A stretch of DNA of 64,000 nucleotides from Amia ocellicauda. Its lineage: Eukaryota > Chordata > Actinopteri > Amiiformes > Amiidae. The DNA lies in NCBI RefSeq assembly GCF_036373705.1, contig NC_089856.1, positions 1,043,501 through 1,107,500 on the forward strand, in the 5' to 3' direction. Below the pieces are notes generated by a model that saw nothing but the letters and a program-made list of their open reading frames with translations, was not told the origin of the DNA and ran no database searches. The position numbers and the translations under genes are program-made. The first letter of the stretch is position 1; each line of letters starts with the position of its first letter. Below, one piece after another: positions 17,597 through 61,961 of this stretch.

Positions 17597-18046
17597 TCAT
17601 TCGGCTTTTCCCGGCTGCGTTTTCCCCCCCGCCCCCTCCTCCTCCTCCTCCTCTCCCTCTCCTACCTGCCCTCCCTCCTCTGCCCCCTCCTCCACACCCT
17701 CATCCTTTCCTCCCATCTCCCCCTCAGCCTCCTCCTCCTCCTCCAGCACCTCCTCTCCAGGGATCCCCTCCATCTCCCCCTCCTCATCCAGCCCCAGCTC
17801 CCCTGCTCCCTCCTCTTCCTCCTCCTCCTCCTCCTTACTCTCGCCCTCGTTCTCAGCCTGCGACTCTGGCTGCACCCCGCCACTGCCCTCCCCCTCCGCT
17901 GCCTCCTCCTCCTCCTCCTCCTCCCCCTCTCCCTCCACCCCTCCCTCCCCCTGGCTCTCGTTCAGCATCTCTCCCTCCGTCACGTCCATCGCCATGGACT
18001 CGTCCGGGTCCGGGTCATCGGGGTTGCCGGTGAACGGGTTTTCTCC
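17597..18046 (-). CDS. akap8l: akap8l last exon, polyacidic tail
   Basis: It starts with the conserved E-N-P-F-T, then becomes a long Glu-rich low-complexity tail with repeated runs of seven to eight Glu and scattered Gly. Mammalian AKAP8L also ends acidic but adds a poly-Pro stretch; here Glu dominates. GAG/GGA repeats make the opposite strand an unbroken (CCT)n tract, which explains the long plus-strand open frames here. Confidence 0.85.
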
Positions 18047-21000
18047 CTGATCGGAGGAAAGGAGGGGGAGGGGGCGGGGACGGGGAAGAGTTAAAAACAA
18101 GCACGATCTAACCACACACACCTCACGCCAGGATGGGACTCTCGATCGGAGGGCTGCTCCCTCGCTCCTCACCTTCAGGTAGCTCTCCAGCTTCTTGCCG
18201 ATGACCTTGTGGTTGAGGATGCTGCGCGCCACCGACAGGCTGGCCCGTTTGGACTGCTCCATCATGCCCTGCGGACGGAGGGACAAGGCCACCGCGTCAG
18301 AAGCGCCGCCCGAGGCCCTCCCGCTCCCCTCCCCCTCCCCGGCGCCGCCCGCGCTCACCCTGCGGTTGAAGTTGTGGTCGGGGGACTTGAGGTGCTTCTG
18401 CAGCAGGTTGGGCTGCATGGGGATGAAGAGGTCGCAGGCCGCGCAGTGGGCCGCCTCCACCTTCTTCATGAAGTGCTCCATGCCCAGGTCTGCGGGGAGA
18501 GGGGACAGCGCGTCATGAGAGACGGCCGGCGGACAGGACGGCGCGGACACCCGGGGGCGCCGGTCAGAGCCGTGGCCCACACTCACCGCGCGTCAGGTCC
18601 TGCTCCTTGTACACCTGGCAGATGGCCGCGCTGATGTTCTCCATGTGGCTCCTGCGCATCTCTGTCTTCTTGTACTTGTTGGACAGATATTCCTGAGACA
18701 TGGCAGGGAGATCAATGAAGATGAATACCAACACACATCAGAGCTGAAACTGCTCTCCTTTGGGTCATTACACCTCTTTTGTAGACATCTGCCCGACAGC
18801 AGACCCAGCTCCTTCCTGCCCCCAACTCATGACACCCACACTAAACTATCCTGAGCACCACCCATGGACGGGAGACAGAGGGGCGCTCACCTGCAGGAAG
18901 TCCGTGGTGGGCTTGGACAGCTTGCTGGCCAGGTATTTGAAGTGCTCCTTGTGGAAGCGGCTGTCCAGGTGGGCGGTCATCTCGTCGTTGTAGAAGGAGC
19001 GGAACTTGCAGACGGAGCAGGCGAACATCACCCTGGGAGGGGGCCGGGGGGGGACACACCATCAGTACGGGCCACACAGTGCTTCACACTTTCAGTCCAA
19101 TGGGTTCAGTATCAGGTTCTCACGAAACATTTACTAAAACGGGAAGACGCTAATCGCCCCGACTTGTGACCCCTGACCCCTCACCTCTCCAGGAAGCGGC
19201 TGCTCCTCTTCTTGGTCTTGGGCTTGGGCTTGTCCGGAGCGGGCGGCCGGCCCTGCAGCTTCCTCTTCATCTGCTTGATCTCCTCCTGCATGGTCAGCGC
19301 TGGGGGGGGGGGGGGTGGGTAAGACGGCCGTCAGGACACAGCCGCAGTGCTCCAACACAAACACGACGAATTCCAACATCTCATTCGCAGGACAGACGCA
19401 AAAGCCAGTGGAGAGACATTTATATACATATTTTTTTAAATTGATAAAGCTTACCATCCTCCCCTTCCGCAGCTCCTTCAGACTCCTTCAAAAGGAGAAA
19501 CACAGAAGAGAAGAAGAAAGTCAGGCCGGGATGCAGATGTGTGACCGCAGACAGCTGTGCGCCAGTGTTAGTTCCGATAACGAAAACTGACAATATTCGT
19601 CAACGACCTGTTTTCAGTGACAATAAGAGACTAAATACTGTGGGGGGGGCGATAACTAAAAAAAGCCTTTAATTTTAGTTGACTGTAATGTGACAAAACA
19701 AATTCAATACAAGACCGATGGGCATGGATGACAGTGCTTTGCGAGGCGGCCGGTCAGGGAGCCGTTTCATGGTCCAATTATAATCATGCATGACTCGGTC
19801 ATCGAGTTTGTGTGGCGCAGCTAATCGCAGTTCTGCGCTGCTTCACCAATGGGATCCTGCAGATCTACGCAGAACCGCGGAAATCTGCCCAACAATGCGA
19901 CCCGATTGTACCCAAGCGTGTTTCGCTAAACGCTGAACGTGCTTGATGTGGTGTACTGTATTGGGCTTAACGTGAAGTTGATACAGATTGTGTGAAGTTA
20001 AATGCCTGTTCTTTTGTATAAACACTACAACCAGGGGCCCTGTGCCGCTCGGCCCCCAATGGATCTGTGTCTGACAATAACCCCAGCCCTGTGCCACCTA
20101 TGGGGTCCGACCCGGTGCTTGGGGGCCGTCCTGCAGCTCTCTAAACCAGTCACTAACTGGGACTTAATAAAGCCTCTATCATTTAATCAGTTCGGCTCCC
20201 ATGCATGTTTCTTCCAACTCCCAAGGGCGGCGTGTTACTGCTCAGTCTCTGTAGAGGTGCATCTTATACTAAAGATTGAATGTGAATGTAAACATTTTCT
20301 AATTAACTCTTAGAAAGCTAATTTAATTGACACATTATTCAACATGTCTTTGGAAGTATGATTTAACAGTTTGCAATGGTTCAATGATGAAAAGAAGCCA
20401 CAGATTACAATGTTAGCTGCGATTCAATAGAATCATGAGGATTGTGAAAATCGCAATACATATTAGCGCCCAAGTGTCGCAAGATCATATTGTGAGGTCC
20501 CTTGTAATTGCCAGCACTTGGAAAGCCGCAGAACAGACGCCCCTGGCACCAACACCGTGATGGAGTCAGTGGGCACCAGCCATTACTTCATTATTTAATT
20601 AACCACCAATTAAGCCAATAACCAAGCTAAAGTCCATTAAGGTCAAGCAATAAAATTAAGCAATTACCCCAAGTCAATTAACTAATTAAGCATAAATCAA
20701 GGAAACTATGCTGGCTGAATCAGAAGCGACCAGAGCAGCGATTCAACGGCACTCACATCTTTGGTCTTCACTTCCTCGTTCTCCACGCTGGGCTCCTCTG
20801 CTTCTGCAGGACAAATGGACAGAGACAGGGCTCACTCTTGCTCCACCCACACACCAACCTGCTCTGGCTCAGAACATCCAGTTTGACTGACCCTTTAAAT
20901 ATATATACATTTTGCGAGGGGAAAGAGCTCAGGATTTGGTTTGGTTTGAGTTTCCTGCTGCAGTGCTGCACACGTTCCTAGCCACACGATCACACAAACG

Positions 21001-32555: not shown

Positions 32556-33724
32556 TTACAGTTTTTCTCAATTGCTGAGTCAATGGTCCACATGACCAAC
32601 ACCAGAACCTGGGTGAGCAGAACAGACACATTTCTGCAAAACAGTAATTCATTTATGGTTGCTTTCACACAAAATGCAAATGCCAAACACATTTGTGCAA
32701 AACAGTAAACACAACTCTCTACACAAGACACAACAGTCGTTTGAGTAAGTCTTGATAACAAAATCAGATAATTTGTTTACAGTCAATAACACGCACTCCC
32801 ACACGTGTGAATCTCTACTGCACATGTGCAGATCTGCATTGCTCAGTTGTTCAGTTGGCAGTCAGTCCATAATCACATATAACAGTGAGTTGGTGTTGGT
32901 GAGAAACGGAGCAAGTCAGAAGGCAAAGACAAAAGAGAGAGAGAGAGCACAGCCACGGGGCCGTAGAGGAGAGGGGTGCGTGTGCGCGGTGGCACAGCAG
33001 CTCAGAGGGGAGACGGAACACGTTTCCAGTGACATGTGTGCCACTATCCTTGACCATGGAGGCAAATGTTTCGCCACATGTCTTCATATATGTGGATGAA
33101 GCAGGATTCAATCTGTCCAAAGCCAAGAGACGTGCAAGGAATATCACCGGTCACAGAGCCACAGTCAGTGTCCAGTGCAGAGAGGTGGGAATATTGCCAT
33201 GTGTGCAGCTATCTCACATCCCCACTGTTGGCCCACACAGTACAGCACACCTATTCACATCCCTTGATATCCTGTTCAACAGATTGTACCCCCTGAAGAG
33301 AGAGAGCAGGTGAGGCCTGAAATGCCAAACTGTGCGGTTATATGGGACAACGTAGTGTTGCACCACTCTCGTCCAGTAAGAGAGTGGTCTGAAGCTCACC
33401 CGGGCATGTCTGTGCAATTTCTCCCTCCACACTCGCCTTTTCTGAACCCCGTCGAGGAGTTATTTTCAGCCTGGCGATGGAAGGTAAATGACAACCGTCC
33501 GTATGACCGAATGTCTCTTGATGCCATGAATGCGGGTTGTCAGGCAATCTCCGCAGAAGCCACGGATGTCTCTGACGTCCAGGAGGTTTTTGCCCTTTGT
33601 ATTGCGATTGAAATTAATCAGTGTGACTTGGATAAGAATATGTCGCCAGACGGACAGCACAGAATGGATTAGTAAAAGCACAATTACTTTTGTGTGATTC
33701 CTGCACTTTTTCCACACGCTGTAA
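32556..33724 (+). mobile_element. IS630-like (DDE) transposon remnant
   Basis: It begins TTACAGTTTTTCTCAATTGC, consistent with a TA target followed by CAG, and ends near GCTGTAA. Between them the decayed transposase reads in two frames. The first (about 33087-33308) holds the first catalytic Asp in Y-V-D-E-A-G-F. The second (33310-33672) holds the second Asp in V-I-W-D-N-V and the Glu in N-P-V-E-E-L-F-S-A-W. I count 35 residues between the last two acidic residues. The frame breaks near 33305 and the N-terminal part is missing, so this copy is dead. Confidence 0.75.
33047..33672 (+). pseudogene. Broken IS630-like transposase
   Basis: C-terminal two thirds of a DDE transposase. All three catalytic acidic positions can be located, but they fall in two reading frames separated near 33305. 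The DNA-binding N-terminus is not seen. Distinct from the Tc1 copies at 44.8 and 48.9 kb by the F-L-N-P-V-E-E-L-F-S-A-W-R-W-K motif. Confidence 0.75.
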
Positions 33725-34125
33725 CTGTGTCTCAGTAAGGCTCCGGCTCTGAGCACGCTGCCCCGACACTACCCCACATGCAGGGCCGGTCCTGTGAACT
33801 GAACTTAATGCTCCTTACTGCTGGAAGTAAAGAGTAAAGGTGTTTGCTAATTAATTAATAAATATATCAATAAATAATAATTAAAAGTTCATACACACTC
33901 CCTGTCTTGTGTGCATCTTGTGTGTCAGTGCGAGACGAGCCTGTACTTTGTGTGGTTGATGGGGTTTGTGAAAGCTGCCCCGGACAAAGACAACCAGACA
34001 AACAGACAGAAGAAGAATGACCTCTGAGGACGATCAGCACAATAGCAGGCAGAGTCCCACGCAGGGCAGTGCCGGGCGGTGCTGTGCGGTGAGTGTGGGT
34101 GTGGTGGACAGAACGAACGGGCTCT
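33725..34125. other. No gene recognised; upstream flank of the lysozyme-like gene
   Basis: It contains AT-rich sequence at 33850-33885. No exon recognised. Confidence 0.4.
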
Positions 34126-34130
34126 CTGTG

Positions 34131-34138
34131 TATAAATA
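34131..34138 (+). promoter_or_regulatory. TATA box of the lysozyme-like gene
   Basis: TATAAATA lies 104-111 bp before the start codon at 34242, placing a transcription start near 34160 and giving a 5' untranslated region of about 80 bases. This also argues against the earlier in-frame ATG at 34017, which lies upstream of the TATA box. A TATA promoter suggests tissue-restricted, strong expression. Confidence 0.7.
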
Positions 34139-34241
34139 CCCGGGTGCCCCGATGCCCAGAACACTCCCAGCGCAGCCTCTCAGCACCTGTCTGTCTGTCG
34201 CTCTCTCTGTTGCTCTGCCTGTTTGCGTTGGCCTCGTGAAG

Positions 34242-37178
34242 ATGGCGTTGTGGTTGCTGGCCGCTCTGTGCCTGGTGCTCGCGGTGCCCGGCGCGGACGC
34301 CAGGGCGTTTAAGAGGTGCGAGTTTGCTGCCCTGCTGGAGGAACAGATTCACAAGATGAAGTCCAACACCAGCGTCCCTGTAAAACTGGACCCCAAGCCT
34401 TTCCTGGCTACCGGTGAGTCGCCTGTGTTGCAATAAACTGTAGAGTCAGGATGGTGAAGCCACCCTGCAGTTTAACAGACAGAACAGCGTCTGAGTAGAG
34501 TAGAGAGTACAGAGTAGAGCAATGGAGAGGTACAGTATAGTATAGTATAGTACAATATAGAATAGAATAGTATAGTTTAGTGCAGGGGTTTTCAAACCGG
34601 TCCTGGAGTACCCCCTGCCCTGCTGGTTTTTGTTCCGAGGTCTTAATTGCTTAATTGAATCCTTAATTGACCTAACAAAGCAATATACCATTCAATTAAG
34701 TAATTAAGACCTAGGTTGGAACGAAAACCAGCAGGACAGGGGTACTTCAGGACCGGTTTGAAAACCCCTGAATTAGGGGAATCCGCAGAATGAGGCAATG
34801 ATGCATTGTGAGTGCGACGGCGACGGACAGAGCTGACTCCTCTGGCGGATCACGACGCTCTGCTTGTGTTTTTCTGCATCTTTATGTTTTAGCTGCTGAA
34901 TGACACAAAATCAGATCTGACACAAGGCAACAAAGGTGTGATTTATCATTTTTGGTCTCATGCTAACTTTTCCAAACATATATGTGGATCGCCGGCCGTC
35001 TCGGCTCAGGTGTTTGTTAGTGGAAATGCATCCAGAATATGAGGCCCTGGAGCAGGACAAGTACACTAGTGTCAGCGAGGCATGCCGAGTCACAGGGCTG
35101 CCCTCACTCTCTCTCCCTCCCTCCCTCTCTCTCCTCTCTCCCTCTCCCACTCTTCCTCTCTCCGCAGTGGTGTGCATGGCAGAGAAGGGCGCGGGGCTGA
35201 ACAGCAGCTCAGTCACACAGTACAGCACCGCCCCCCCCAAGCCGGCAGGCACCAAGGGGAGAGAGGAAAACGGAGGAATAAGTGGGAGGAAGAATGGGAA
35301 GCAGGATCAGAGAAAACAGAGGAAAAAGAGATCGTGGATGGACAAGAAGAAGGGGAAGGGGAGGGCAAGGAGGAGCAGGGTGGGGCAGGCGCCCGGCGGG
35401 CCGCTGGAAGCCCTGAAGGAGGAGAAGAAGAAGGGAGAAGAAGAGAAGCCGATCAAGCAGCTGCTTTCGCTGGACAGAGGGAAGATGATGGACGGGTCGC
35501 CGAAAGTGAAGAAGTCAATGGGACAAATTATATCAGCCTTACTGAGCGTGGAGACGGAGGGGGACAGCGGAGAGGACAGCGAGAATGAGACCCTGAGCGA
35601 GAGTGCGAGTGAGGACGAGAGTGAGAGTGAGAGTGAGAGTGAGGACGAGAGTGAGGACGACAGCGAGGACAAGAGTGAGGACGACAGCGAGGACAAGAGT
35701 GAGGATGAGAGCGAGGACGACAGTGAAGATGAGAGCGAGGACGACAGTGAGGACGAGAGCGAGGATGACAGTGAGGACGAGAGCGAGGATGACAGTGAGG
35801 ACGAGAGTGAGGATGACAGTGAGGACGAGAGCGAAGACGACAGTGAGGACGACAGTGAAGACGACAGTGATGACAACAGTGAGGACGATAACGAGAGTGA
35901 GGATGACAGTGAGGACAAGAGTGACAGTGAAGACGAGAGTGAGGATGACAGTGAGGATGACAGTGAAGACGAGAGTGAGGATGACAGTGAGGACGAGAGT
36001 GAGGATGACAGTGAGGACGAGAGTGAGGATGACAATGAGGACGAGAGTGAGAGTAAGGACGAGGAAGGGGATGATGAGAATGGGGACGAGCAGGAGGGGG
36101 AGCTGATGGCGTTCCTGCAGCAGCTGCAGGAGGCCATGGGTGACGATTCTCGGAAGAAGAGGTCAGCCCCGGTTCCTGGGCCGAAGCTGGGCCTGGGTCT
36201 GCTGCAGCTGCCCTCTGTGGTGGTCTGCTCCTCTCCGGACCAGCCGGGCCAGAACCTGTGTGGCTTGAACTGCACCAGTGAGTCTCCACCCCCCGTCACT
36301 CCTGTACTCGTGTGCCATCATCCCTCTGTCTCTTCATCCCCTTCTTTCATCTCCACCCCCCACACTCTATCCCTCCCTCCTGCCATCTTTCCCACCTCCT
36401 CTCTCTTCTCTCCTTGTCTGCCTCATCCTGTAATCTGTGTCCTTCCTCCATTCATATCATCCCTCCATTTCTCCTCTCACCCCCCCATCTCCCTCCCTCT
36501 CCCCTCTCTTCTGTGGAGATTCCTCGGGGGTGTTGCCGATGTCATGTGAGAAAATGACAGGACTGACACTCTCCCTATCTCTCCCCCTCTCCCTCTCTCT
36601 GGCAGAGCTGATGGACGATGACATCACCGATGACATCACCTGCGCCTTCAGAGTGATGCAGGAACTGGGCCTGGGGTGAGTGGGGGAAATGGTCACGCCT
36701 CAGTGCCACAGCAGGGGCAGTTGTCGGTACTCGTGAGAGGGCTAGTTACAGTACAGTGACGCTTCCTGTAGGCGCCGTAGTAGCAGAAGCAACAGCAGCT
36801 GTAGTGACTATAGAGGCTGCAGTTATGACATCATAGCAGGAGTAGGAGTAGAAGCAGTAGTAGGAGCAGCAACCATACAAACATTAATTACACAGCAACC
36901 GTGGAGCGTACCGGATCCCTGGGCCGGGCCGGGCTGCAGCCCCCACGGACCAGAGCTGTGCCTCTCACCAGTCCAGTGATCAAACCACTAATTCATTAAT
37001 TCATCAGTTGAGTAATTGCGTAATTGCTCGTTGTTAACTCATTAATCTGGTGATTGCTTAATTGGCCATTGCTGTGTTCAACCGCAGGCCTTCCGCTCTG
37101 GCCCAGGAGTTCGACAAGGTGGTGAAGACGCTGGGGTGTGACAACGCCAAGCCCTCCGTCTACCTGACCAAGTGCTAG
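34242..37178 (+). CDS. Secreted c-type lysozyme/alpha-lactalbumin family protein with large acidic insertion
   Basis: Four coding exons, 34242-34413, 35168-36277, 36606-36675 and 37088-37178, have GT-AG borders and join in one frame (480 aa). Residues 1-20 are a signal peptide. After it, all eight family cysteines are present (26, 60, 411, 422, 426, 440, 468, 480) and no others. The C411 to C440 segment and the last pair keep near-family spacing. The first intron splits the codon just before V-C-M-A, as in lysozyme. L-M-D-D-D-I-T-D-D-I-T-C after K428 is the calcium loop. Catalytic Glu35 is Gly here and no Asp52 equivalent is seen, so lysozyme activity is unlikely. Exon 2 holds about 320 extra residues: a basic segment (about 84-135) and a Ser-Glu-Asp repeat (about 190-367). 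Function unknown; an extracellular calcium-binding role is inferred. Confidence 0.85.
34533..34580. repeat. (TATAG)n short array in intron 1
   Basis: About eight pentamer units of TATAG with variants. Confidence 0.8.
34582..34775. mobile_element. Fold-back element in intron 1 of the lysozyme-like gene
   Basis: The left arm (AGGGGTTTTCAAACCGGTCC, TGGAGTACC, CCCTGCCCTGCTGG) is matched in reverse by the right arm (CCAGCAGGACAGGGGTAC and GGACCGGTTTGAAAACCCCT). The arms are about 80 bp with an AT-rich loop. The whole element can form one long hairpin. Arm sequence is related to the element at 22127-22440. Confidence 0.75.
35571..36100 (+). repeat. Coding tandem repeat, (Ser-Glu-Asp-Asp/Glu)n
   Basis: A 12-bp unit, AGTGAGGAYGAS-like, is repeated about 40 times in frame within exon 2. 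It encodes alternating S-E-D-D and S-E-D-E, with a few S-D, K-S and N-E variants. Synonymous changes (AGT/AGC, GAC/GAT) are scattered, and Asp/Glu/Ser composition is held while codons vary, which suggests selection on charge. S-E-D-E and S-E-D-D fit casein kinase 2-type sites (acidic residue at +3). The reverse strand reads as poly-Ser/Leu, a shadow. Confidence 0.9.
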
Positions 37179-37282
37179 AGTGACAACCCCCCCAGCAGCG
37201 CAGCTTCTTCTGCCTCTCTGCCCTGCTGGAGCCTCCTGGCTGCTCTAGAGCTGTGGATCTTACCGTCCCTGCAATATAAATA

Positions 37283-37285
37283 GAG

Positions 37286-37328
<43 letters not shown>

Positions 37329-37358
37329 GATAAAAAAAATCACTGCAAGAACAATAAA
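37283..37358 (+). terminator. (TG)n and polyadenylation signal of the lysozyme-like gene
   Basis: About 20 TG units are followed by AATAAA at 37353-37358, 175 bases after the stop codon. GT-rich sequence follows at about 37382-37392 (GGGTTGGGGTGGG), as expected downstream of a cleavage site. Confidence 0.7.
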
Positions 37359-37399
37359 AACAAAAAAAAAAACATTTTATTCGGGTTGGGGTGGGAATT

Positions 37400-38045
37400 G
37401 AAGTACAGTGTGTGTAAATAAATGAATGAATTGAAGGAATGTCATTTGTGCTGTTTCGGTTTTTGTTCATTTGTTCAATGAAGACAGAGTCACGGAGCTC
37501 CACGGCGGCCTGGTTATTACTGGCCTCTGTGCGTCACTGCAGACGCAGCACTAGGTGTCACTGTTTCAACAAGGTTTCATTTCCTGCCAGTCTCTCTCTC
37601 TCCTGGCGGTCAGATACAGGGCAGCTTACAGAGGCACATCGTCATGCAACAACACATGAACCAGGAAGGGAAAACATGCACAGAGCTGACCCCCACACGC
37701 CAGTGCATCACATGACACACACAGAGTGCTCCATTCACATCCACTTTGCATTCGAGACCAGAGCAGGCAGGGCTATGAGTTTCCTTCCAAAGGTTTAAGC
37801 CACAGAGATGATATTCTTGGCTGGTTCTTGTGGGGGGGTGATGATGCTGGAAATGCATCAATTGACAGGAAACAGAAATCAGCCTGTGAGCTGATGGTTC
37901 TGTTTGAACATGAAAAGGCACTAAAAACAGTCTTAATCATGGCTCAGGGAGGGGCAACAGACCGCAGTGCACACACACACACGCAAATATGAACATATGT
38001 ACAAATAAATACAATATATGTATTCCCATATCTACACCACTCTAT
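37400..38045. other. Intergenic, nothing recognised
   Basis: Lies between the converging 3' ends of the lysozyme-like gene and kiss1r. No coding signal. Confidence 0.4.
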
Positions 38046-38486: not shown

Positions 38487-40949
38487 CTAGCTGCCAACAG
38501 TCACAAACTTCATCTCTGCGTTGTGGTGCCGTGACCCCTCTCCCTCTCCCTCTCCCTCTCCCTCTCCCTCTCCGCCCGCTCCCCCTGCCCTGCCCACGCT
38601 GCTGCCCCTGTGCGCCACCCTCCTGCGGAAGAAGAGCGGGCAGGCCTTGCGGAAGGCCTTGCGGAAGCTCTCGCCCATGAAGGCGTAGAGCAGCGGGTTG
38701 AGGGCCGAGTTGGCGTAGGACATGCAGTTGGCCCAGGTCTTGATCTTGTAGGTGTGGTAGTCGGCGCGGAAGGCCGGGTAGAAGCCCTGGCACAGCAGGA
38801 ACAGCATGATGGGGCCCCAGCACAGCGTGAACAGCAGCACCACGCCCACCACCATGCGGGTCACCCGGCCCCGGACCAGCGCCGCCCGCTCCGACGAGCC
38901 CGACTCGTGCTGCGCGAGAGAGAGAGAGAGAGAAAGATGAGGTGGCATGGACTGGTTAAAAGAAGCAAGACCTTTTGTGTCGTGTTGTGCATTGTGTGCC
39001 TACTGTGCTGTGTGTTGCGTGTGGCATGTTGCAGGTTGTGTGTCGTGTGGTGTGTTGTTGCTGCATGTTGTATGTTTACTTTTGAATGTGGTGGGTTTTG
39101 TGTTGCATTGTGTTTTGTATTGTGTGTTGTGTGCAGTGGGCTTTGTGGTGCATGTGGGGCATTGCGTTGCGCGTGGTGCATGTGATGCCTGGCGTGTGTA
39201 GTACGTTGCGTGCTGTGTTGCGTGCCCACCTCGTAGTTGTGGTCCATGGGCTCCACCACGGGCCGGCCCACGCGCTTCAGCATGATGGTATAGCACACAC
39301 AGATGGTCAGCAGGGGGAGCAGGTAAGCGGCCAGGAAGGTGTAGAGGATGTAGCCTCTCTGCAGCCCCGGCGAGGGGAAGCGCTCGGTGCAGTAGGTGCG
39401 CAGCCCGTACCACAGGCCCGCCTCCAGCTGGTGGTACAGTGCCATGGGCAGAGAGATGAGGAACGAGCCTGGGGTCGGGGAGAGGGGGGAGAGAGAGAGA
39501 CGGGAGGAGAAAGTGTGATCGGTGCAACAGGTGCTCATTGTGCGCACTGTGTAGTATACTGTAGTACTGTGTGGTGCAGATTGCTGCTCCAGTCCAAGCC
39601 GGGCGTACCGATCCAGATGCCCACACTGACAGCCACGGCCACACGGGGGGTGCGTCTCCGCAGTGACTGCAGCGGGTACAGGGTGGCGTAGCAGCGGTCC
39701 ACACTCATGGCAGTCAGCGTGATGCAGGTCGCCTGGACTGTGACCTGAAGGAGAGGGAGAGACGGAGATGTATTTATTAAAAAAATTTAAAATTATAAAA
39801 TACAAATAAAAGATACAGCAATTCTTTGGTTACGAAGTCTCTGCGTCTCTGTGAGTGCCTGTGTGTCTCCTTATGTCTCTGTCTCCACTTGTCTCCGTGT
39901 CTCTGCCACCCCGTGTGTCCGTCTCTGCGGTGGAGTGGGCGTACCTGCTGCAGGTAGTTGACGAACTTGCACATGAACTCCCCAAAGACCCAGCTGGGCA
40001 GCGGGTACAGCGTGGCAGTGAAGGGTACACAGCACACCAGGAAGATGATGTCCGTGCAGGCCAGGTTGGCTGGGGGGGTAGGCACACAAAATCAATCAAT
40101 CAATCCATCGACCAATCAGCGCCCTTGTCAGAACAGCTGCCTCAGAGCGCTGCCGGGTCAATGTGCACGTTTGTGTAACAGCACACAGAACCCAGGAGGA
40201 GACTGACTGACTGACTGACTGAGCTACGTGGTTGACGTGTCATTGATTGGACATGGTTTTGTCTTCGCTCTCAGCTGAGCTCGAGTTCAGTTTATCCGAG
40301 GAAGGGCTTTAATTGGCTTAATTGAGGAGGGCATGATATCCACTCCACTGATCAGGGTTCTGTCCTGGTCTGATTAACTGACACAGAACTGGGTCACTGG
40401 GCCCGAGATTTTACATTCAAAATATGAAATGCAAGATAAATGGACAGGAACATGCATTGCAATACATTTCACAATAATATTACATTAAAAAGGCAGAATT
40501 GTAAACAAGATACAGGAGTGGAAGTGAAATGTATCATCTGTAATTAATATATTGTTAAATGAGATGAGAGAGAGAGACAGTCACGCGTGTCCATCTGTCC
40601 TCCGCTCACTCACCGATGTAGAAGTTGGTGGCGGTGCGCATGTGCCGGTGTCTGCTGATGACGTAGATGACCAGGGAGTTCCCCGCGAGCCCCGCGAGCC
40701 CCACGAGCGCGAAGAGCAGCGGCACGAGCCAGGCGTCCGTCAGCAGGGGGGGCTCCTCCCCCCCCCCGTGACGTTATACACCCACAGGCGCGTGCGCACG
40801 CCGGCGGCCACGTCACGGCCCGCGTCGGCAGGGCGGGTGGAGTTGGTGCCGGTGCCGGTTTGCACGGTGCAGCTGGGCGTCGGGACCCCGTGGGGTCTGT
40901 GTGCGCAGGCGCTGACGACGGTGGGTGACGTGCTGTTGTAAAGTTCCAT
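38487..40949 (-). CDS. kiss1r: Kisspeptin receptor (GPR54), five exons, frame broken in exon 1
   Basis: Class A GPCR for kisspeptin, a Gq-coupled receptor controlling GnRH neurons and reproduction. Exons on the minus strand: 40949-40614, 40069-39945, 39744-39609, 39468-39230, 38909-38487. All borders are GT-AG and phases agree from exon 2 on. Diagnostic sequence: membrane segment 1 near L-V-I-Y-V-I-S-R-H, segment 2-3 [19 protein letters not shown] after segment 3, C-W-G-P in segment 6, [12 protein letters not shown] and N-P-L-L-Y in segment 7. Three N-glycosylation sequons precede segment 1. A one-base shift in a G10 run (40758-40767) separates the N-terminus from the rest; with the frame continuous the product would be about 419 aa. 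Which fish kissr subtype it is cannot be settled here. Confidence 0.92.
40614..40949 (-). other. kiss1r: kiss1r exon 1 with single-base frame disruption
   Basis: From the ATG at 40949 the frame runs through three N-x-S/T sites to V-T-G-G-G and a stop just after a run of ten G. Membrane segment 1 lies in the next frame, starting with [10 protein letters not shown]. Exon length is 336 bp, giving the wrong phase for the phase-1 donor. One more G (or two fewer) would restore both. Homopolymer length error in the assembly is the simplest cause; a real polymorphism or gene loss is possible. Confidence 0.85.
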
Positions 40950-44843: not shown

Positions 44844-46239
44844 TACACTCACCTAAAGGATTATTAGGAACACCATACTAATACTGTGTTTGACCCCCTT
44901 TCGCCTTCAGAACTGCCTTAATTCTACGTGGCATTGATTCAACAAGGTGCTGAAAGCATTCTTTAGAAATGTTGGCCCATATTGATAGGATAGCATCTTG
45001 CAGTTGATGGAGATTTGTGGGATGCACATCCAGGGCACGAAGCTCCCGTTCCACCACATCCCAAAGATCCTCTATTGGGTTGAGATCTGGTGACTGTGGG
45101 GGCCAGTTTAGTACAGTGAACTCATTGTCATGTTCAAGAAACCAATTTGAAATGATTCGACCTTTGTGACATGGTGCATTATCCTGCTGGAAGTAGCCAT
45201 CAGAGCATGGGTACATGGTGGTCATAAAGGGATGGACATTGTCAGAAACAATGCTCAGGTAGGCCGTGGCATTTAAACGATGCCCAATTGGCACTAAGGG
45301 GCCTAAAGTGTGCCAAGAAAACATCCCCCGACCTTTGTGACATGGTGCATTATCCTGCTGGAAGTAGCCATCAGAGGATGGGTACATGGTGGTCATAAAG
45401 GGATGGACATGGTCAGAAACAATGCTCAGGTAGGCCGTGGCATTTAAACGATGCCCAATTGGCACTAAGGGGCCTAAAGTGTGCCAAGAAAACATCCCCC
45501 ACACCATTACACCACCACCACCAGCCTGCACAGTGGTAACAAGGCATGATGGATCCATGTTCTCATTCTGTTTACGCCAAATTCTGACTCTACCATCTGA
45601 ATGTCTCAACAGAAATCGAGACTCATCAGACCAGGCAACATTTTTCCAGTCTTCAACTGTCCAATTTTGGTGAGCTTGTGCAAATTGTAGCCTCTTTTTC
45701 CTATTTGTAGTGGAGATGAGTGGTACCCGGTGGGGTCTTCTGCTGTTGTAGCCCATCCGCCTCAAGGTTGTACGTGTTGTGGCTTCACAAATGCTTTGCT
45801 GCATACCTCGGTTGTAACGAGTGGTTATTTCAGTCAAAGTTGCTCTTCTATCAGCTTGAATCAGTCGGCCCATTCTCCTCTGACCTCTAGCATCAACAAG
45901 GCATTTTCGCCCACAGGACTGCCGCATACTGGATGTTTTTCCCTTTTCACACCATTCTTTGTAAACCCTAGAAATGGTTGTGCGTGAAAATCCCAGTAAC
46001 TGAGCAGATTGTGAAATACTCAGACCGGCCCGTCTGGCACCAACAACCATGCCACGCTCAAAATTGCTTAAATCACCTTTCTTTCCCATTCAGACATTCA
46101 GTTTGGAGTTCAGGGGATTGTCTTGACCAGGACCACACCCCTAAATGCATTGAAGCAACTGCCATGTGATTGGTTGGTTAGATAATTGCATTAATGAGAA
46201 ATTGAACAGGTGTTCCTAATAATCCTTTAGGTGAGTGTA
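44844..46239 (-). mobile_element. Tc1-type transposon with intact transposase frame
   Basis: Terminal inverted repeats of about 30 bp (CACTCACCTAAAGGATTATT and AGGAACACC inward) are flanked by TA on both sides. The element is about 1.4 kb with one transposase gene on the minus strand. The repeats match each other almost perfectly, so the insertion is recent. Confidence 0.9.
44878..46089 (-). CDS. Tc1-type transposase with internal 57-residue duplication
   Basis: A 403-codon frame with no stops. Residues 1-120 hold two helix-turn-helix domains (S-I-S-Q-S-A-Q-L-L-G-F-S-R-T-T-I). The catalytic core has D155 in A-W-S-D-E-S and E340 in D-L-N-P-I-E. A 171-bp tandem duplication (45158-45328 and 45329-45499, only a few base differences) repeats G-M-F-S-W-H...C-H-K-G-R, so the second catalytic Asp occurs twice, D246 and D303. 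D246 has normal distance to D155; D303 has normal distance to E340, with 36 residues between, which would place it with DD36E rather than the usual DD34E elements. Without the duplication it is 346 aa, the normal size. Activity is doubtful. Confidence 0.9.
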   Translation of the reverse strand: MGKKGDLSNFERGMVVGARRAGLSISQSAQLLGFSRTTISRVYKEWCEKGKTSSMRQSCGRKCLVDARGQRRMGRLIQADRRATLTEITTRYNRGMQQSICEATTRTTLRRMGYNSRRPHRVPLISTTNRKKRLQFAQAHQNWTVEDWKNVAWSDESRFLLRHSDGRVRIWRKQNENMDPSCLVTTVQAGGGGVMVWGMFSWHTLGPLVPIGHRLNATAYLSIVSDHVHPFMTTMYPSSDGYFQQDNAPCHKGRGMFSWHTLGPLVPIGHRLNATAYLSIVSDNVHPFMTTMYPCSDGYFQQDNAPCHKGRIISNWFLEHDNEFTVLNWPPQSPDLNPIEDLWDVVERELRALDVHPTNLHQLQDAILSIWANISKECFQHLVESMPRRIKAVLKAKGGQTQY

Positions 46240-50720: not shown

Positions 50721-53525
50721 TCATAAAAGAATTAAAAGATCTTGGCTCGGGCTCCAGCAGGGGGAGATGAGAGCAAAGGCTCGGAGCGCCCTGTAGAACG
50801 GCGGGGGATCCCACGAGTGCGGCCTGGTGTTATCCATGGCGCAGAGGCCGAATGGTCTCAGGCTGCTGGCAAAATAAAAGCGGTTCATAAAACTCACTTT
50901 CTTGCCAGCAGCCTGGATGTTCTTGACCACATAGGCCAGCCCCTGCGCCTTTATCAGCCGCACAACGTCCGGGACCCCCCTGCCTCCATCCAGGGTACCC
51001 TTCACCATCTGCACTCTTTTCAGCCTCTCCATTTTGCTCCCCCAGACAAACCGAAATATAATTCGGGTCACTAGTTTTGCGATGACCTTGTCTGGGGGGA
51101 AGATCATTCCTACGTAGAGGAGTATCGGGAAGAGGATGGCTTTTACGACCAGCACCTTACCAGCCATCGTCAAGGTCCTTGTGCTCCAGCCGTGGATCTT
51201 CTTTTGGACCTTAGATATGGCCTCCTCCCAGCTCCGGGTGCCCGTGTTGGTCCCGTCGATCGTGATCCCCAGAACCTTGATAAGCGGCTTCACAGGGAAC
51301 ACGGTCGGCGGGCCCTGGCCGACAGGCCATGCCCTGGAGAGGTAGACCTCGCTCTTGGCCTTGTTGACAGCGGCCCCCGTCGCCCTGCAGAAGCCGTCCA
51401 GCAGTTCCTCAACCCTGGCCATGGCCACGTCGTCCATGTAGGCCAGGGCCTTCAGTTGCTCTCCGCCGGAACCCGGGAGATGGAAACCTGTCACCCGGAC
51501 GTCCCGGCGGATCGCCTGCATGAACGGCTCCAGAAAGAGGACGTACAGCAGGGCCCACAGGGGACAACCCTGTCGGACCCCCGACCTGACCGGAAATGGT
51601 TCGGTCAGGTGGTGGTTCACGAGGAGCCTGCTGCTTAGGCCGCTGTAGATGATCTTAACCCACTTTCTCAGGCCAAGAGCGAGACCCATCCTCTCCATAA
51701 CGAGCTGCAGGTATTCGTGGCCCACTCTGTCGAAGGCTTTCTCCTGGTCCAGGCTAATTAGGACCAGGGGAAGCCCTCTCTCGTTTGAGTAGGCCACGAC
51801 ATCCCTGAGCAGCATGGCGTTGTCGGCCGCCGATCTCCCCCGGGCACCGCAGACCTGGTCGGGACCCACGACTTGAGGGAGTGGCCGCTGCAGCCGGAGC
51901 GTCAGTGCTTTGGCCAGTATCTTGTAGTCGGTGCACAGGAGGCTGACCGGCCGCCAGTTCCTCAGATCCTTTGGATCTCCCTTCTTATGAAGAAGAGAGA
52001 GGATACTCCTCTTCATAGAAGGGGCCAGTCTACCCTCTCTGTACATCGACCCCAAGACCTGAGCCAGATCTTCCTTAAGCACCTCCCAAAAGATCTTATA
52101 GAATTCAGCAGGGATCCCATCGGGACCCGGTGTCCTTCCAGAGTTAAGACTCTTTACCTGGGAGAGTTCAGTGGTGGTGATCTCTGGATCCTCCTCCGCC
52201 TCCTCGTCCCCCTCGTTGCGTGACTCCAACAGGGACAGAAAGTGATGGGTCAGATTTTGATCCACCACCTTCTGATCGTACAACTCCCTGTAGAAGTCCC
52301 GCACCACTGTCTCAACAGCCTCTCTGCCCTCCACCTCCTGCCCCGAGGAGTCGATCATGGAGGACATTGCAGGCCGCCTCTCCTTCGTTTTCTTGAAGAA
52401 GAAGTGGCTGCACTTCTCGTCGTCCTCCATGATGCGGACCCTGGAAAGGACCTTGATCTTCTCTTGCTCCTCCCGATAGAGGGCGGAGAGACTCAGTTTG
52501 ACCCGAGCCACCTCCTCAGCTAGGTCGAAGCCTCTGAGCTGTAAAAGACTCAGGTGCTGGAGGCGGGCGTTTAGATGGGAATATTTCGCCCGCCTCTCGC
52601 GAGCTTTTCGTTTCCCCAGCTGAATGAAGTAGCCCTTGGTCCTTTTCTTCACCATCTCCCACCACTCTATGGGAGAATCAAAAAGGTCCTTCAGGGTCCT
52701 CCACTCCTCGAGGCATCTGCTAAACGTCTTAATAACACGAGGGTCATCGAGCAGAGAGGTGTTGAGCTTCCAGACCCCAGGCCCCGACTCCCGTGTGCTC
52801 GGAATGAACAGCTCTGTCGTCAGGAGCCTGTGGTCTGAAAAGAAGACCGCCCCCGAAGACATGGCGGTCCTCTCCAGTGGCTTACTGAGGAGGACGAGAT
52901 CTATCCTGGAGAAGGAGGAGCCAGAAGAACTCACCCAGGTGAACAAGGGGACCAGGTCCCGACCTGCGTCGCAGAGTTCAAAGTCCTCCACGAACGCAGC
53001 AAGGTCCCTGCTGGATCTATCGTTGCAGGGCTTACTCCGGTCTACATCCCTCAGAGCACAGTTGAAATCACCTGAAATGATAACCGGTAAGGTGCCGATC
53101 AGGAGCGGGCGTAGCTGAGGGAGAAAGAGGACTCTCTCTCTCTGGCTGGTGGGGGCATAGACATTGACCAGCCTCAATACAGCCCCCTTGTATTTAAGGT
53201 CGAGGCTGGCCAACCTGCCCGCCTCTATCACCCTAAATTTTTTAACTTCTATGAATGGGTTTTTCAGGAGTACGGCAATCCCGTCCGCTCGGGACACATT
53301 GGACCAGAAGGAATCACCTAGGGTCCAAGTATCCCGGAGATCTTTATATTCTTTTTGGAATGGGATGCCGCACTCCTGTAAACAGATGATGTCTGCTTTC
53401 ATTCCAGCCAGAGAGCTTAAAACATCGGCCCTCTTTTTCACCTCAGCAATGCTCCTCACGTTTATAGATATAATTGTTAAAGCCATAATGGCAGTGAGGG
53501 CAATTACCCGCTCCGTAACAATCAT
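50721..53525 (-). CDS. L1-Tx1 LINE ORF2: endonuclease and reverse transcriptase
   Basis: A 934-codon open frame. Residues about 15-240 form an APE-type endonuclease (S-I-N-V-R-S-I, C-L-Q-E-C at the catalytic Glu, V-Y-A-P-T, S-G-D-F-N, and S-D-H-R-L at the end). The reverse transcriptase covers about 450-740: T-P-G-P-D-G-I-P-A-E-F, N-W-R-P-V-S-L-L, S-L-D-Q-E-K-A-F-D-R-V, R-Q-G-C-P-L and the catalytic A-Y-M-D-D. Right after Y-M-D-D the sequence jumps to A-R-V-E-E-L-L, about ten residues short of the usual spacing, and the C-terminus is several hundred residues shorter than Tx1 ORF2. It has an open frame but probably carries small in-frame deletions, so activity is doubtful. Confidence 0.88.
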   Translation of the reverse strand: MIVTERVIALTAIMALTIISINVRSIAEVKKRADVLSSLAGMKADIICLQECGIPFQKEYKDLRDTWTLGDSFWSNVSRADGIAVLLKNPFIEVKKFRVIEAGRLASLDLKYKGAVLRLVNVYAPTSQRERVLFLPQLRPLLIGTLPVIISGDFNCALRDVDRSKPCNDRSSRDLAAFVEDFELCDAGRDLVPLFTWVSSSGSSFSRIDLVLLSKPLERTAMSSGAVFFSDHRLLTTELFIPSTRESGPGVWKLNTSLLDDPRVIKTFSRCLEEWRTLKDLFDSPIEWWEMVKKRTKGYFIQLGKRKARERRAKYSHLNARLQHLSLLQLRGFDLAEEVARVKLSLSALYREEQEKIKVLSRVRIMEDDEKCSHFFFKKTKERRPAMSSMIDSSGQEVEGREAVETVVRDFYRELYDQKVVDQNLTHHFLSLLESRNEGDEEAEEDPEITTTELSQVKSLNSGRTPGPDGIPAEFYKIFWEVLKEDLAQVLGSMYREGRLAPSMKRSILSLLHKKGDPKDLRNWRPVSLLCTDYKILAKALTLRLQRPLPQVVGPDQVCGARGRSAADNAMLLRDVVAYSNERGLPLVLISLDQEKAFDRVGHEYLQLVMERMGLALGLRKWVKIIYSGLSSRLLVNHHLTEPFPVRSGVRQGCPLWALLYVLFLEPFMQAIRRDVRVTGFHLPGSGGEQLKALAYMDDVAMARVEELLDGFCRATGAAVNKAKSEVYLSRAWPVGQGPPTVFPVKPLIKVLGITIDGTNTGTRSWEEAISKVQKKIHGWSTRTLTMAGKVLVVKAILFPILLYVGMIFPPDKVIAKLVTRIIFRFVWGSKMERLKRVQMVKGTLDGGRGVPDVVRLIKAQGLAYVVKNIQAAGKKVSFMNRFYFASSLRPFGLCAMDNTRPHSWDPPPFYRALRAFALISPCWSPSQDLLILL

Positions 53526-53594
53526 GTAAAGAAACCCTCCTCTTCCCCACTTCTCTCTTCTCCCTCACCTAGCTTAGCGCTCGCACCCATCATT

Positions 53595-55446: not shown

Positions 55447-55858
55447 TCTGTGTCTGTGTTTCTCCCTCTTTCTTTTACTGTCTCTACTCTCTCCTTACTC
55501 GCTCTACACTTTCTCTGCACTCTTCTCTCTCTCTCTGTGGAGTATTTGTCTTGAGTGATTAAATGGTCTGTCTGTCATCTCTCCAGACCCCCCACCCAAG
55601 TCGCTCCTAACTAAAGGTTAACCACATACAATTGCATTACCCCCCGGACATCACTCCATGCTCTGATAAGGGCTCCTGCTCACAGATTGTGTTTGGGGGG
55701 CTTCAGTGTAAAGATCACTGCGGCCCCCAGGACACCTCGGCCAATGACAGGAAACAGCCCCCCCCAGCGCGTCTCCAGTGCCCTTCCAACTGGTCACCAC
55801 GGTAACAGGTGACACTTCTAAGGCATGTGTATTGTTTACCATGGTTTGTGCCAGAGAT

Positions 55859-58697
55859 TACTACACTACACTACACTACACTACACTACAGCACACTACA
55901 CTGCACTACACTACAGCACACTGCACTACACTACACTACAGCACACTGCACTACACTACACTACACTGCACTACACTGCACTACACTACACTGCACTACA
56001 CTGCACTACAGCACACTACAGCACACTGCACTACACTACACTACACTGCAATACACTACACTACACTGCACTACAGCACACTGCACTACACTACACTACA
56101 CTGCAATACACTACACTACACTGCACTACACTGCACTACAGCACACTGCACTACACTGCACTACACTGCACTACACTACACTACACTGCACTACACTGCA
56201 CTACAGCACACTGCACTACACTACACTACACTACAGCACACTACACTAAACTACACTACAGCACACTACACCGCACTGCACTACACTGCACTACAGCACA
56301 CTGCACTACACTACAGCACACTGCACTACACTACACTACACTACAGCACACTACACTGCACTGCACTAAACTACACTACAGCACACTACACCGCACTACA
56401 CTACACTACACTGCACTGCACTACACTGCACTACAGCACACTGCACTACACTACACTACACTACAGCACACTACACTGCACTGCACTGCACTGCACTAAA
56501 CTACACTACAGCACACTACACCGCACTACACTACACTGCACTGCACTACACTGCACTACAGCACACTGCACTACACTACACTACACTACAGCACACTACA
56601 CTGCACTGCACTGCACTAAACTACACTACAGCACACTACACCGCACTACACTACACTACACTGCACTGCACTACACTGCACTACAGCACACTGCACTACA
56701 CTACACTACACTGCAATACACTACACTACACTGCACTGCACTGAACTACACTGCACTGCACTACACTGCACTACACTACACTACACTGCACTGCAATACA
56801 CTACACTACACTACACTGCACTACAGCACACTGCACTACAGCACAGTGCACTACACTACACTACACTGCAATACACTACACTACACTGCACTACACTACA
56901 GCACACTGCACTACACTACACTACACTGCAATACACTACACTACACTGCACTACACTACACTACACTGTAATACACTACAGCACACTGCACTACACTACA
57001 CTACACTGCACTACACTACACTACACTGCAATACACTACAGCACACTGCACTACACTGCACTACAGCACACTGCACTACACTACACTACACTGCACTGCA
57101 CTACACTGCACTACAGCACACTGCACTACACTACACTACACTACAGCACACTACACTGCACTGCACTGCACTAAACTACACTACAGCAGACTACACCGCA
57201 CTACACTACACTGCACTGCACTGCACTAAACTACACTACACTACACTGCACTACACTACACTACACTACACTGCACTACACTGCACTACACTACACTACA
57301 GCACACTACACTGCACTGCACTGCACTAAACTACACTACAGCACACTACACCGCACTACACTGCACTGCACTACACTGCACTACAGCACACTACACTGCA
57401 CTGCACTGCACTAAACTACACTACAGCACACTACACCGCACTACACTACACTACACTACACTACACTACAGCACACTGCACTGCACTACACTGCACTACA
57501 CTGCAATACACTACAGCACACTGCACTACACTACACTGCACTACACTACACTACACTGCAATACACTACAGCACACTGCACTACACTGCACTACACTGCA
57601 CTACACTGCACTACACTGCACTACAGCACACTGCACTACACTACACTACACTACAGCACACTACACTGCACTACACTGCACTACACTACACTACACTACA
57701 CTACACTGCACTACACTGCACTACACTACACTACACTACAGCACACTACACTGCACTGCACTGCACTAAACTACACTACAGCACACTACACTGCACTGCA
57801 CTGCACTAAACTACACTACAGCAGACTACACCGCACTACACTACACTGCACTGCACTGCACTAAACTACACTACACTGCACTACACTGCACTACACTACA
57901 CTACACTACAGCACACTACACTGCACTGCACTACACTGCACTACAGCACACTGCACTACACTACACTACACTACAGCACACTACACTGCACTGCACTGCA
58001 CTAAACTACACTACAGCAGACTACACCACACTACACTACACTGCACTGCACTGCACTAAACTACACTACACTACACTGCACTACACTGCACTACACTACA
58101 CTACACTACAGCACACTACACTGCACTGCACTGCACTACACTGCACTACAGCACACTACACCGCACTACACTACACTACACTACACTACAGCACACTGCA
58201 CTGCACTACACTGCACTACACTACACTACAGCACACTGCACTGCACTACACTACACTACACTACAGCACACTACACCGCACTACACTACACTACACTGCA
58301 CTGCACTACACTACACTACAGCACACTGCACTGCACTACACTGCACTACACTACACTACAGCACACTACACCGCACTACACTACACTACACTACACTACA
58401 CTACACTACACTGCACTACACTGCACTACACTACACTACACTACAGCACACTGCACTGCACTGCACTGCACTACACTACACTACAGCACACTGCACTGCA
58501 CTACACTACACTACACTACAGCACACTACACCGCACTACACTACACTACACTGCACTGCACTACACTGCACTACAGCACACTGCACTACACTACACTACA
58601 CTACAGCACACTACACTACACTACACTACACTACACTACACTACACTGCACTACACTACACTACAGCACACTGCACTGCACTACACTGCACTACACT
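55859..58697. repeat. 2.8-kb pentamer satellite (CTACA / CTGCA / GCACA)n
   Basis: Nearly every 5-bp step reads CTACA, CTGCA or GCACA, with rare ATACA, CCGCA and CTAAA forms. Longer patterns recur, such as a CTGCACTGCACTAAACTACA-type block followed by CTACAGCACACTACACCGCA, many times between about 56240 and 58060. Because five is not a multiple of three and no stop codon arises, all three forward frames stay open; these are not genes. Confidence 0.97.
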
Positions 58698-58699
58698 CT

Positions 58700-59404
58700 C
58701 TTACACTGCGTTCTGTGCTGTCTTATCCTATGCAGGCCATGGTGGCGTGGGGCTGCAGTCCAGCGAGTGTGAATAGCGAGTCTGTGGCGGAGTGTGGTGT
58801 GAAGTCCGGGGCCCTGGGGTGTGAAGCCCTTCAGTGAGGGCGCTGTATAGCCCAGTCCGCTGTGCAATACCGCCTCGTTAGAGTGCATAGAGTCAATGTG
58901 TTCAGTAGTCCCCCGTGGCTGCACAGTGACACACAGGGGCTGTGTGTCGAACCCACATCGATTTGAGCAGAGACATGTGGCCCTGGTTTCCATGCTGCAT
59001 CTGTGCCTGTCTATGCCCTGCTCTCACTGTGCCACCCCCGGGGTCAGCCGCCCTCGTCAACTGTGAACAGGGTGTAGCTGAGTAGTGATCCCAATCAGCC
59101 CCCCACCCCCAGCCCTCAGAGACCAGAGTGGAGCCAGTCAATCGGCCGCTGTGGAAAGCAGAGAAGCACAAGGGTTGTCATTACAGAACTGAAATGGAAT
59201 TAATTTTTCTACTGCACCACGGGCGGGCTACTCCTTGTGTGCATTGAGTGCTGTGTCTCTATTCCTCAGGGTTGTGTATTGGACAGGAGAGCCGTGCAAG
59301 GTGACTGATTTATGTTAATGAGGTTTCTGTGTGAGTCTGTGTGTGTGTGTGCCTTGTGGTTTCTTAATCTGCAATCATTTCATATATTTTATTATTATAA
59401 TTAT
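58700..59404. other. No gene recognised
   Basis: Ordinary single-copy DNA with GC content near half. A short (GT)n at about 59334-59351. Confidence 0.4.
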
Positions 59405-59765
59405 TTTTTTCTTTGCAGACGCCCTTGTCCAGGGCGACTTACAAAATATAAGCGCAATACAAAGTGCAAAAATACAGTGCAGTACAAGGCATAACATTAC
59501 AAATTCCAATTCACATAATAGTGCAGTTCAAGGCATAATACATTTTACAAATTCCAATTTACACAATATATGAGGTCTTACTTCCTGGACTGTAGAAGAT
59601 GATGAGTGCAGACGATGTCAGGCCACAGTTAAGAGCCAGCTAAGGGAGCGTAGGGGAGATCAAAATACACAATATGAGTACTACTAATGCAAGGCAAGGT
59701 ATACCGTGTTTCACAGGAATACAGGAAAATATGTTTGCAATAGTTATATTTTTGTAAAAGGTGGA
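59405..59765 (-). mobile_element. L2-like LINE 3' region, reverse orientation
   Basis: Starts with GCAGACGCCCTTGTCCAGGG and CGACTTACA, the reverse complement of the tail at 2485-2515. Further in, the segment 59590-59660 is the reverse complement of 2290-2375 in outline (TTAACTGTG..ACAT..GTCTGCACT). Same family as the 2 kb fragment. Confidence 0.65.
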
Positions 59766-59874
59766 GATGATTTTTTAAATGGTTGGTATTTTTGTTTTAA
59801 ATATTAAGAGGACATTTCCAGAGTTGTCCCTATTTATTTATCTGAACGCCTTACGCCAAGTGTTCCCCTTTCTT

Positions 59875-61868: not shown

Positions 61869-61869
61869 C

Positions 61870-61961
61870 CTCGTCGTCGCTCTGTGGCGCCGGGTCCCTT
61901 TAAGGAGGCGTGGCTTGCGGGTCGACGCGGCGATCCCGGCAGTGCCGTGAAGGTCACAGAC
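61870..61961 (+). promoter_or_regulatory. pet100: pet100 core promoter and 5' untranslated region
   Basis: Only about 92 bp of non-repetitive, CpG-rich sequence separates the tetramer array from the pet100 ATG. It contains GGCGCC, a CCTTTAAGG palindrome near 61895 and AAGGTCA at 61950-61956, a nuclear-receptor half-site of the kind often found near mitochondrial genes. Transcription start unknown. Confidence 0.5.

Follow-up and report, generated by a model that had tools for sequence, protein, structure and literature searches.

A predicted lysozyme/alpha-lactalbumin-family protein of a bowfin with a long acidic insert bracketed by furin-type sites

Few small protein folds have been studied as closely as that of lysozyme and alpha-lactalbumin, and the vertebrate members described so far are compact. 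To our knowledge, neither alpha-lactalbumins nor calcium-binding c-type lysozymes carry an insert such as the one reported here, and Starmaker/DSPP-type matrix proteins have no lysozyme-fold core. Alpha-lactalbumin (LALBA), mostly 123 residues long in the excerpted text of PMC7565966, resembles the protein described below in fold family, four-exon gene, non-catalytic character and type of calcium loop, whereas the latter has 480 residues. Human lysozyme-like genes encode ~140–150 residues, and LALBA is reported from mammals only, with no good non-mammalian candidates found by Irwin et al. (both from an excerpt of PMC3141428). The SPACA3/SLLP1 and LYZL sperm lysozyme-like proteins belong to the same family as the present protein, and the excerpt of PMC5300149 describes SLLP1 and mouse LYZL4 as devoid of bacteriolytic activity. 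Like the present insert, Starmaker/DSPP-type matrix proteins contain an extended stretch of acidic, disordered sequence with numerous putative sites of phosphorylation (PMC4260845, in excerpt). Among the best-ranked PMC literature matches, which cover published papers and were available as partial texts, there was no lysozyme-family protein with such an insert; automatic gar or bowfin annotations may well contain the gene unrecognised. New here are an insert that looks translated, furin-type sites that bracket it, and a further gene whose insert sits at the same hairpin.

The stretch of DNA analysed (the window, 64,000 nucleotides of Amia ocellicauda contig NC_089856.1) contains a gene whose predicted product is a member of the lysozyme/alpha-lactalbumin family. 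Its parts are as follows.

34131..34136, + strand: TATA box from a motif scan, 111 bp 5′ of the ATG
34242..34413, + strand: exon 1, encoding the leader (aa 1–21, by eye) and the helix-A region with C26; donor gtgagt, phase 1
35168..36277, + strand: exon 2, 1110 nt, encoding C60, the insert and the core from ~aa 399 with C411, C422 and C426; phase 1
36606..36675, + strand: exon 3, encoding C440 and most of the calcium loop KLMDDDITDD; phase 2
37088..37178, + strand: exon 4, encoding C468 and C480, with the stop TAG
37353..37358, + strand: polyadenylation signal AATAAA from a motif scan, 175 bp 3′ of the stop

Splicing the four exons by script yields a frame of 1443 nt that encodes 480 amino acids plus the stop, as the first-pass annotation had proposed, and the leader was assigned as a signal peptide by eye. 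All three introns have gtgagt donors and cag acceptors, in phases 1, 1 and 2, and the second splits the Lys codon of the calcium loop. Two ordinary c-type lysozyme genes in the same genome serve as controls.

C24:15912840-15914202, − strand: ordinary c-type lysozyme gene, both catalytic residues kept
C24:15046351-15047570, − strand: ordinary c-type lysozyme gene, both catalytic residues kept

Both have coding exons of 142/162/79/67 nt in phases 1/1/2 and a changed calcium loop (TDNIGVD). The window gene therefore has the gene structure of the family, with its extra length mainly in exon 2, and the earlier claim of introns at lysozyme positions and phases holds. Human lysozyme-like genes likewise have introns at the same positions and phases (excerpt of PMC3141428). 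A search of window positions 33000–38000 for RNA families gave no matches at the gathering score.

The full-length protein matches the Pfam Lys profile at 6.2e-10 (39.8 bits, cut-off 27) through aa 400–450, and without the insert the match improves to 1.8e-13 (51.2 bits) over profile positions 3–103 of 123; the N-terminal part alone has no Pfam match. A PDB search with the C-terminal 84 residues gave a best match of 1.8e-9 and, among the best 60 of 279 matched sequences, alpha-lactalbumins occupy 16 of the 17 best rows. The profile search that the first-pass annotation had set as the test of its family assignment thus agrees with that assignment. Cysteines lie at positions 10 (in the leader), 26, 60, 411, 422, 426, 440, 468 and 480, and the eight that follow the leader were found in the spliced product with the spacings previously described. 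The 4/14/12 spacings are those of hen lysozyme; compared with lysozymes, C26–C60 is ~10 residues longer, C440–C468 ~7 longer and C411–C422 one shorter. The spacing between the seventh and eighth cysteines is 12, as against 9 in alpha-lactalbumin by the numbering of the excerpted PMC7565966. The top identities of the core are to dog milk lysozyme (42/120) and horse milk lysozyme (41/120), and the calcium-binding c-type lysozymes (horse and dog milk, pigeon) share both calcium loop and cysteine spacing with it.

Set against the alpha-lactalbumin loop given in the excerpt of PMC7565966, KLMDDDITDD is an intact loop, and it retains the Lys79/Asp82/Asp84/Asp87/Asp88-type residues of the calcium-binding lysozyme/alpha-lactalbumin group; with these residues kept, the core is a putative calcium binder. 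In a family alignment with mostly provisional reference sequences, that of human alpha-lactalbumin being verified, G65 falls at the position of Glu35 and G399 at that of Asp52, the latter call depending on where the end of the insert is placed. The predicted protein lacks both catalytic residues of an active lysozyme, in contrast to the calcium-binding c-type lysozymes, which are active enzymes (excerpt of PMC3141428). The first-pass annotation, sound on membership, insertion point and gene structure, had passed over both the catalytic loss and the kept calcium loop.

Two features account for the length of exon 2.

35224..36186, + strand: insert, ~aa 77–397 (~320 residues), replacing the first β-hairpin turn of lysozyme; edges approximate, from the alignment
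35614..36111, + strand: Ser-Glu-Asp array, aa 207–372, a 12/48-bp tandem repeat

The alignment supports the earlier placement of the insertion, which lies between the cysteines equivalent to C30 and C64. The Ser-Glu-Asp repeat, previously put at ~175 residues, is indeed a repeat and measures ~165. Codon pairs of the array that differ by one base are synonymous in 22 of 41 cases at a lag of 48 bp (15 D/E swaps, 4 other), in 41 of 72 at 12 bp (26 D/E swaps, 5 other) and in 18 of 35 at 24 bp (11 D/E swaps, 6 other). The expected synonymous share is 17% with transitions weighted 2, and, as the repeat copies are not independent, P for the excess is only indicative, although its direction is clear. 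Because synonymous or D/E changes account for most differences between repeat units, the insert looks translated and the array looks constrained at the protein level. S-x-x-D/E is the CK2-type phosphorylation motif and S-x-E that of the secretory kinases. The former fits 33 of the 38 array serines; the latter is absent from the array and occurs twice in the rest of the insert (aa 184 and 191). CK2-type rather than classical secretory-kinase phosphorylation of the array would thus be expected. SCPP genes carry S-x-E phosphorylation motifs and, together with Starmaker/DSPP-type genes, phase-0 introns. The window gene differs from the SCPP type in its 1/1/2 phases as well as in these motif counts.

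A motif search located three furin-type sites in the insert.

35320..35331, + strand: furin-type site 1, RKKR-S, aa 109–112
35362..35373, + strand: furin-type site 2, RARR-S, aa 123–126
36151..36162, + strand: furin-type site 3, RKKR-S, aa 386–389, closing the acidic segment on its C-terminal side

R-X-K/R-R is the proprotein-convertase (furin) motif, and here it stands on both sides of the connecting segment, as in convertase-processed two-chain proteins. The N-side basic stretch is so rich in Lys and Arg that the motif comes up in 28% of its shuffles; the C-side segment yields it in 0.78% and the whole protein, at least once, in 4.5%, and none of 20000 whole-protein shuffles has three or more sites. 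RKKRS itself is found on both sides; shuffles produce this word in 0.17% of cases on the N side and 0.005% on the C side. Because the sites bracket the insert, it may not stay attached, an aspect that the earlier reading, right about the insertion itself, did not mention. In proinsulin, the C-peptide lies between basic cleavage sites and the chain ends are joined by disulfides. The bracketing protease sites suggest that the insert would be excised like this C-peptide; the likeness is one of mechanism only, the fold being unrelated and the cleavage of the window protein a prediction. Alpha-lactalbumin has a disulfide between residues 28 and 111. Disulfides 6–120, 61–77 and 73–91 are named in the excerpt of PMC7565966. 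By analogy, each of the two N-chain cysteines would be bonded to one in the C-terminal chain, and the core would thus hold together after cleavage.

Searching the assembly (988 Mb, 385 contigs) with the Pfam Lys profile gave at least nine matches at E up to 10, a lower bound because only the best candidates were scored. Six of the nine are exons of the two ordinary lysozyme genes, one is exon 3 of the window gene, one belongs to a gene on contig C29, and a weak one (C7:26935085, E 2.2) was dropped, its sequence showing no lysozyme exon by eye.

C29:9062278-9062449, 9061425-9061763, 9060795-9060861 and 9059862-9059931, − strand: lysozyme-like gene, phases 1/1/2, 215 aa

The C29 protein matches Pfam Lys at 8.5e-17 and, without its insert, has horse milk lysozyme as best PDB match (1.1e-16). 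Its calcium loop reads ALLDDDISDD, the two catalytic positions are occupied by Thr and Leu, and there are two extra cysteines, 20 (in the leader) and 47. Its insert, ~63 residues long, sits at the same hairpin as that of the window protein and contains one RXXR site only (RRSR-S). The single-gene picture drawn previously is therefore incomplete. When the two proteins were compared, 0 of 500 shuffles reached the score of the N-terminal half and 0 of 500 that of the C-terminal half, which marks both halves as related. Between the two inserts no similarity was detected, 55% of 500 shuffles scoring as well, so a common role for them is not supported.

An unrooted tree of 12 sequences, most of the references among them provisional, parts the window and C29 genes from the other ten (SH-aLRT 94, bootstrap 80) on long branches, with LALBA as the neighbouring lineage. 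AU tests reject none of the placements of the pair with LALBA (0.71), with the horse/dog calcium lysozymes (0.43) or with the classic lysozymes (0.35). Among trees in which the pair is split, the one joining only the window gene to LALBA is rejected (0.028), and those joining only the C29 gene to LALBA (0.19) or only the window gene to horse/dog lysozyme (0.27) are not. Raw identity does not single out the pair (window–C29 31%, window core–dog milk lysozyme 35%). The two genes also share the insertion point, a lengthened segment between the first and second cysteines, and a coding exon 1 of 172 nt. Because pair-breaking trees are only partly rejected and identity does not favour the pair, we put a shared branch no higher than likely.

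In mammals KANSL2 is a neighbour of LALBA, in the order LALBA-KANSL2-CCNT1, and HOXC13 and KANSL2 are markers of human chromosome 12, which carries LALBA. A putative KANSL2-like gene lies at C7:7.76 Mb, on the same contig as the window gene at 1.08 Mb and 6.7 Mb from it; LALBA orthology is not supported by neighbourhood, as this distance puts the window gene outside the LALBA neighbourhood. The HoxA13_N profile has four matches, which we assign to single exons of four genes, HOXA13, B13, C13 and D13, names presumed from sequence comparison; the C13-like exon is on C7. Four such exons fit a fish without the teleost duplication.

We infer the secretion, fold, disulfide pairing, cleavage and calcium role of the window protein, and propose that the core folds from aa 22–76 and ~aa 399–480, with the four family disulfides locking the fold and the insert projecting from the first β-hairpin at its tip. 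A furin-like convertase would cut behind RKKR112, RARR126 or both, and again behind RKKR389. Such processing would free a disordered polyanionic peptide of ~263–277 residues with a net charge of −113 to −107 (263 residues and −113 for cuts at 126 and 389), leaving a two-chain core joined by C26–C480 and C60–C468. The most likely role of the free peptide would be to bind large amounts of calcium, which it would condense or store inside a secretory granule or a mineralising fluid, and the core would be its small calcium-binding partner. Starmaker-like acidic disordered proteins alter calcium carbonate crystallisation (excerpt of PMC4260845), and it is this effect, together with the array motifs, that favours a released calcium-condensing peptide. 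An excised acidic insert, a two-chain, disulfide-locked, calcium-binding core and a peptide that binds calcium in bulk make up the best explanation, to which we give about an even chance. The wider reading is tentative and falls a little short of that: a natural split lysozyme fold in a fish branch that may be alpha-lactalbumin's closest relative outside mammals, with the hairpin acting as an insertion port and convertases excising a polyanionic calcium-binding peptide to leave an insulin-like two-chain core. If true, one gene would supply a calcium matrix peptide as well as the folded calcium-binding partner of that peptide. A family member made as a proprotein with a ~320-residue insert, together with the C29 gene and its insert at that hairpin, would demonstrate that the fold can be opened into two chains, and the branch would be non-mammalian, non-enzymatic and calcium-binding, and as such relevant to the origin of alpha-lactalbumin.

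It is rather unlikely that the insert stays attached, the core of a single chain displaying an acidic mineral- or calcium-binding loop and the polybasic stretches serving as its charge partners. Basic aa 77–126 (net +15) could indeed pair with acidic aa 127–389 (net −113), but RKKR-S occurs at both edges of the insert, and the C-side motif is not readily expected from composition alone. We give still less credence to a host-defence reading, in which the insert is an acidic propeptide that keeps a cationic protein neutral until cleavage unmasks a basic-tailed, two-chain, non-enzymatic microbe killer. Acidic propeptides occur in cationic granule proteins, and the N-terminal chain with its tail (aa 22–126) has a net charge of +17. 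According to the excerpt of PMC7565966, proteolysis of alpha-lactalbumin yields fragments of two disulfide-linked chains that kill bacteria. Against this, the acidic charge is several-fold above the basic, the C-terminal chain is net −3, and the C29 insert has no acidic array.

Excision of a calcium-binding peptide remains the preferred reading, and it is highly improbable that all or part of the insert is absent from the mature message, a stretch of exon 2 being spliced out. Exon 2 does contain 26 GTRAG donor-like words, all from 35609 on, and weak acceptor-like AGs at 36120, 36123, 36129, 36207 (pyrimidine fraction 0.60) and 36243 (0.73), the true third acceptor of the gene having a fraction of only 0.60, and a splice to 36120–36129 could remove most of the array. 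However, the protein-level constraint on the array and the lack of a GTRAG donor in exon 2 5′ of 35609 make the whole insert unlikely as an intron, use of 36207 or 36243 would cost core residues (up to aa 404, or C411 too), and the insert at the matching position of the C29 gene is an open frame. A lysozyme duplicate broken by an expanding GA-rich repeat, a pseudogene or minisatellite accident, would suit the 12/48-bp tandem repeat and the long branch in the tree, but it has hardly any chance in view of the 480-codon open frame, intact splice sites, eight cysteines, calcium loop, TATA box and polyadenylation signals, and of the non-repetitive insert parts, which are open as well.

Around the gene, a Pfam search of neighbours matched 8 of 10 ORFs, two of the ten from C29. 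It identified an AKAP95-family gene at 17597-18592 (− strand) in the window, with a BET-domain gene and a Syf1-type gene in the flanks. Rhodopsin-class GPCR exons (Pfam 7tm_1) lie at 38487-39829 (− strand) and look galanin/kisspeptin-receptor-like by eye. On C29, the lysozyme-like gene is ~5 kb from an LH-beta-looking cystine-knot gene, with a zinc-finger frame between them. Intron 1 of the window gene contains a MITE-looking palindromic element (34578-34775) with 37-nt arms that are 92% complementary and 124 nt apart, and an inner inverted pair. An open frame at 33268-33672, by eye like the C-terminal part of a Tc1/mariner-type transposase, ends ~460 bp upstream of the TATA box. A Tc1-type transposase frame with an internal duplicated segment occupies 44878-46089 (− strand), and three similar frames are present on C29:9040001-9090000. 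The 947-codon frame at 50721-53564 (− strand) resembles a LINE endonuclease/reverse transcriptase by eye, and the long low-complexity arrays at 55748-62059, open in many frames, are probably simple-sequence DNA rather than genes.
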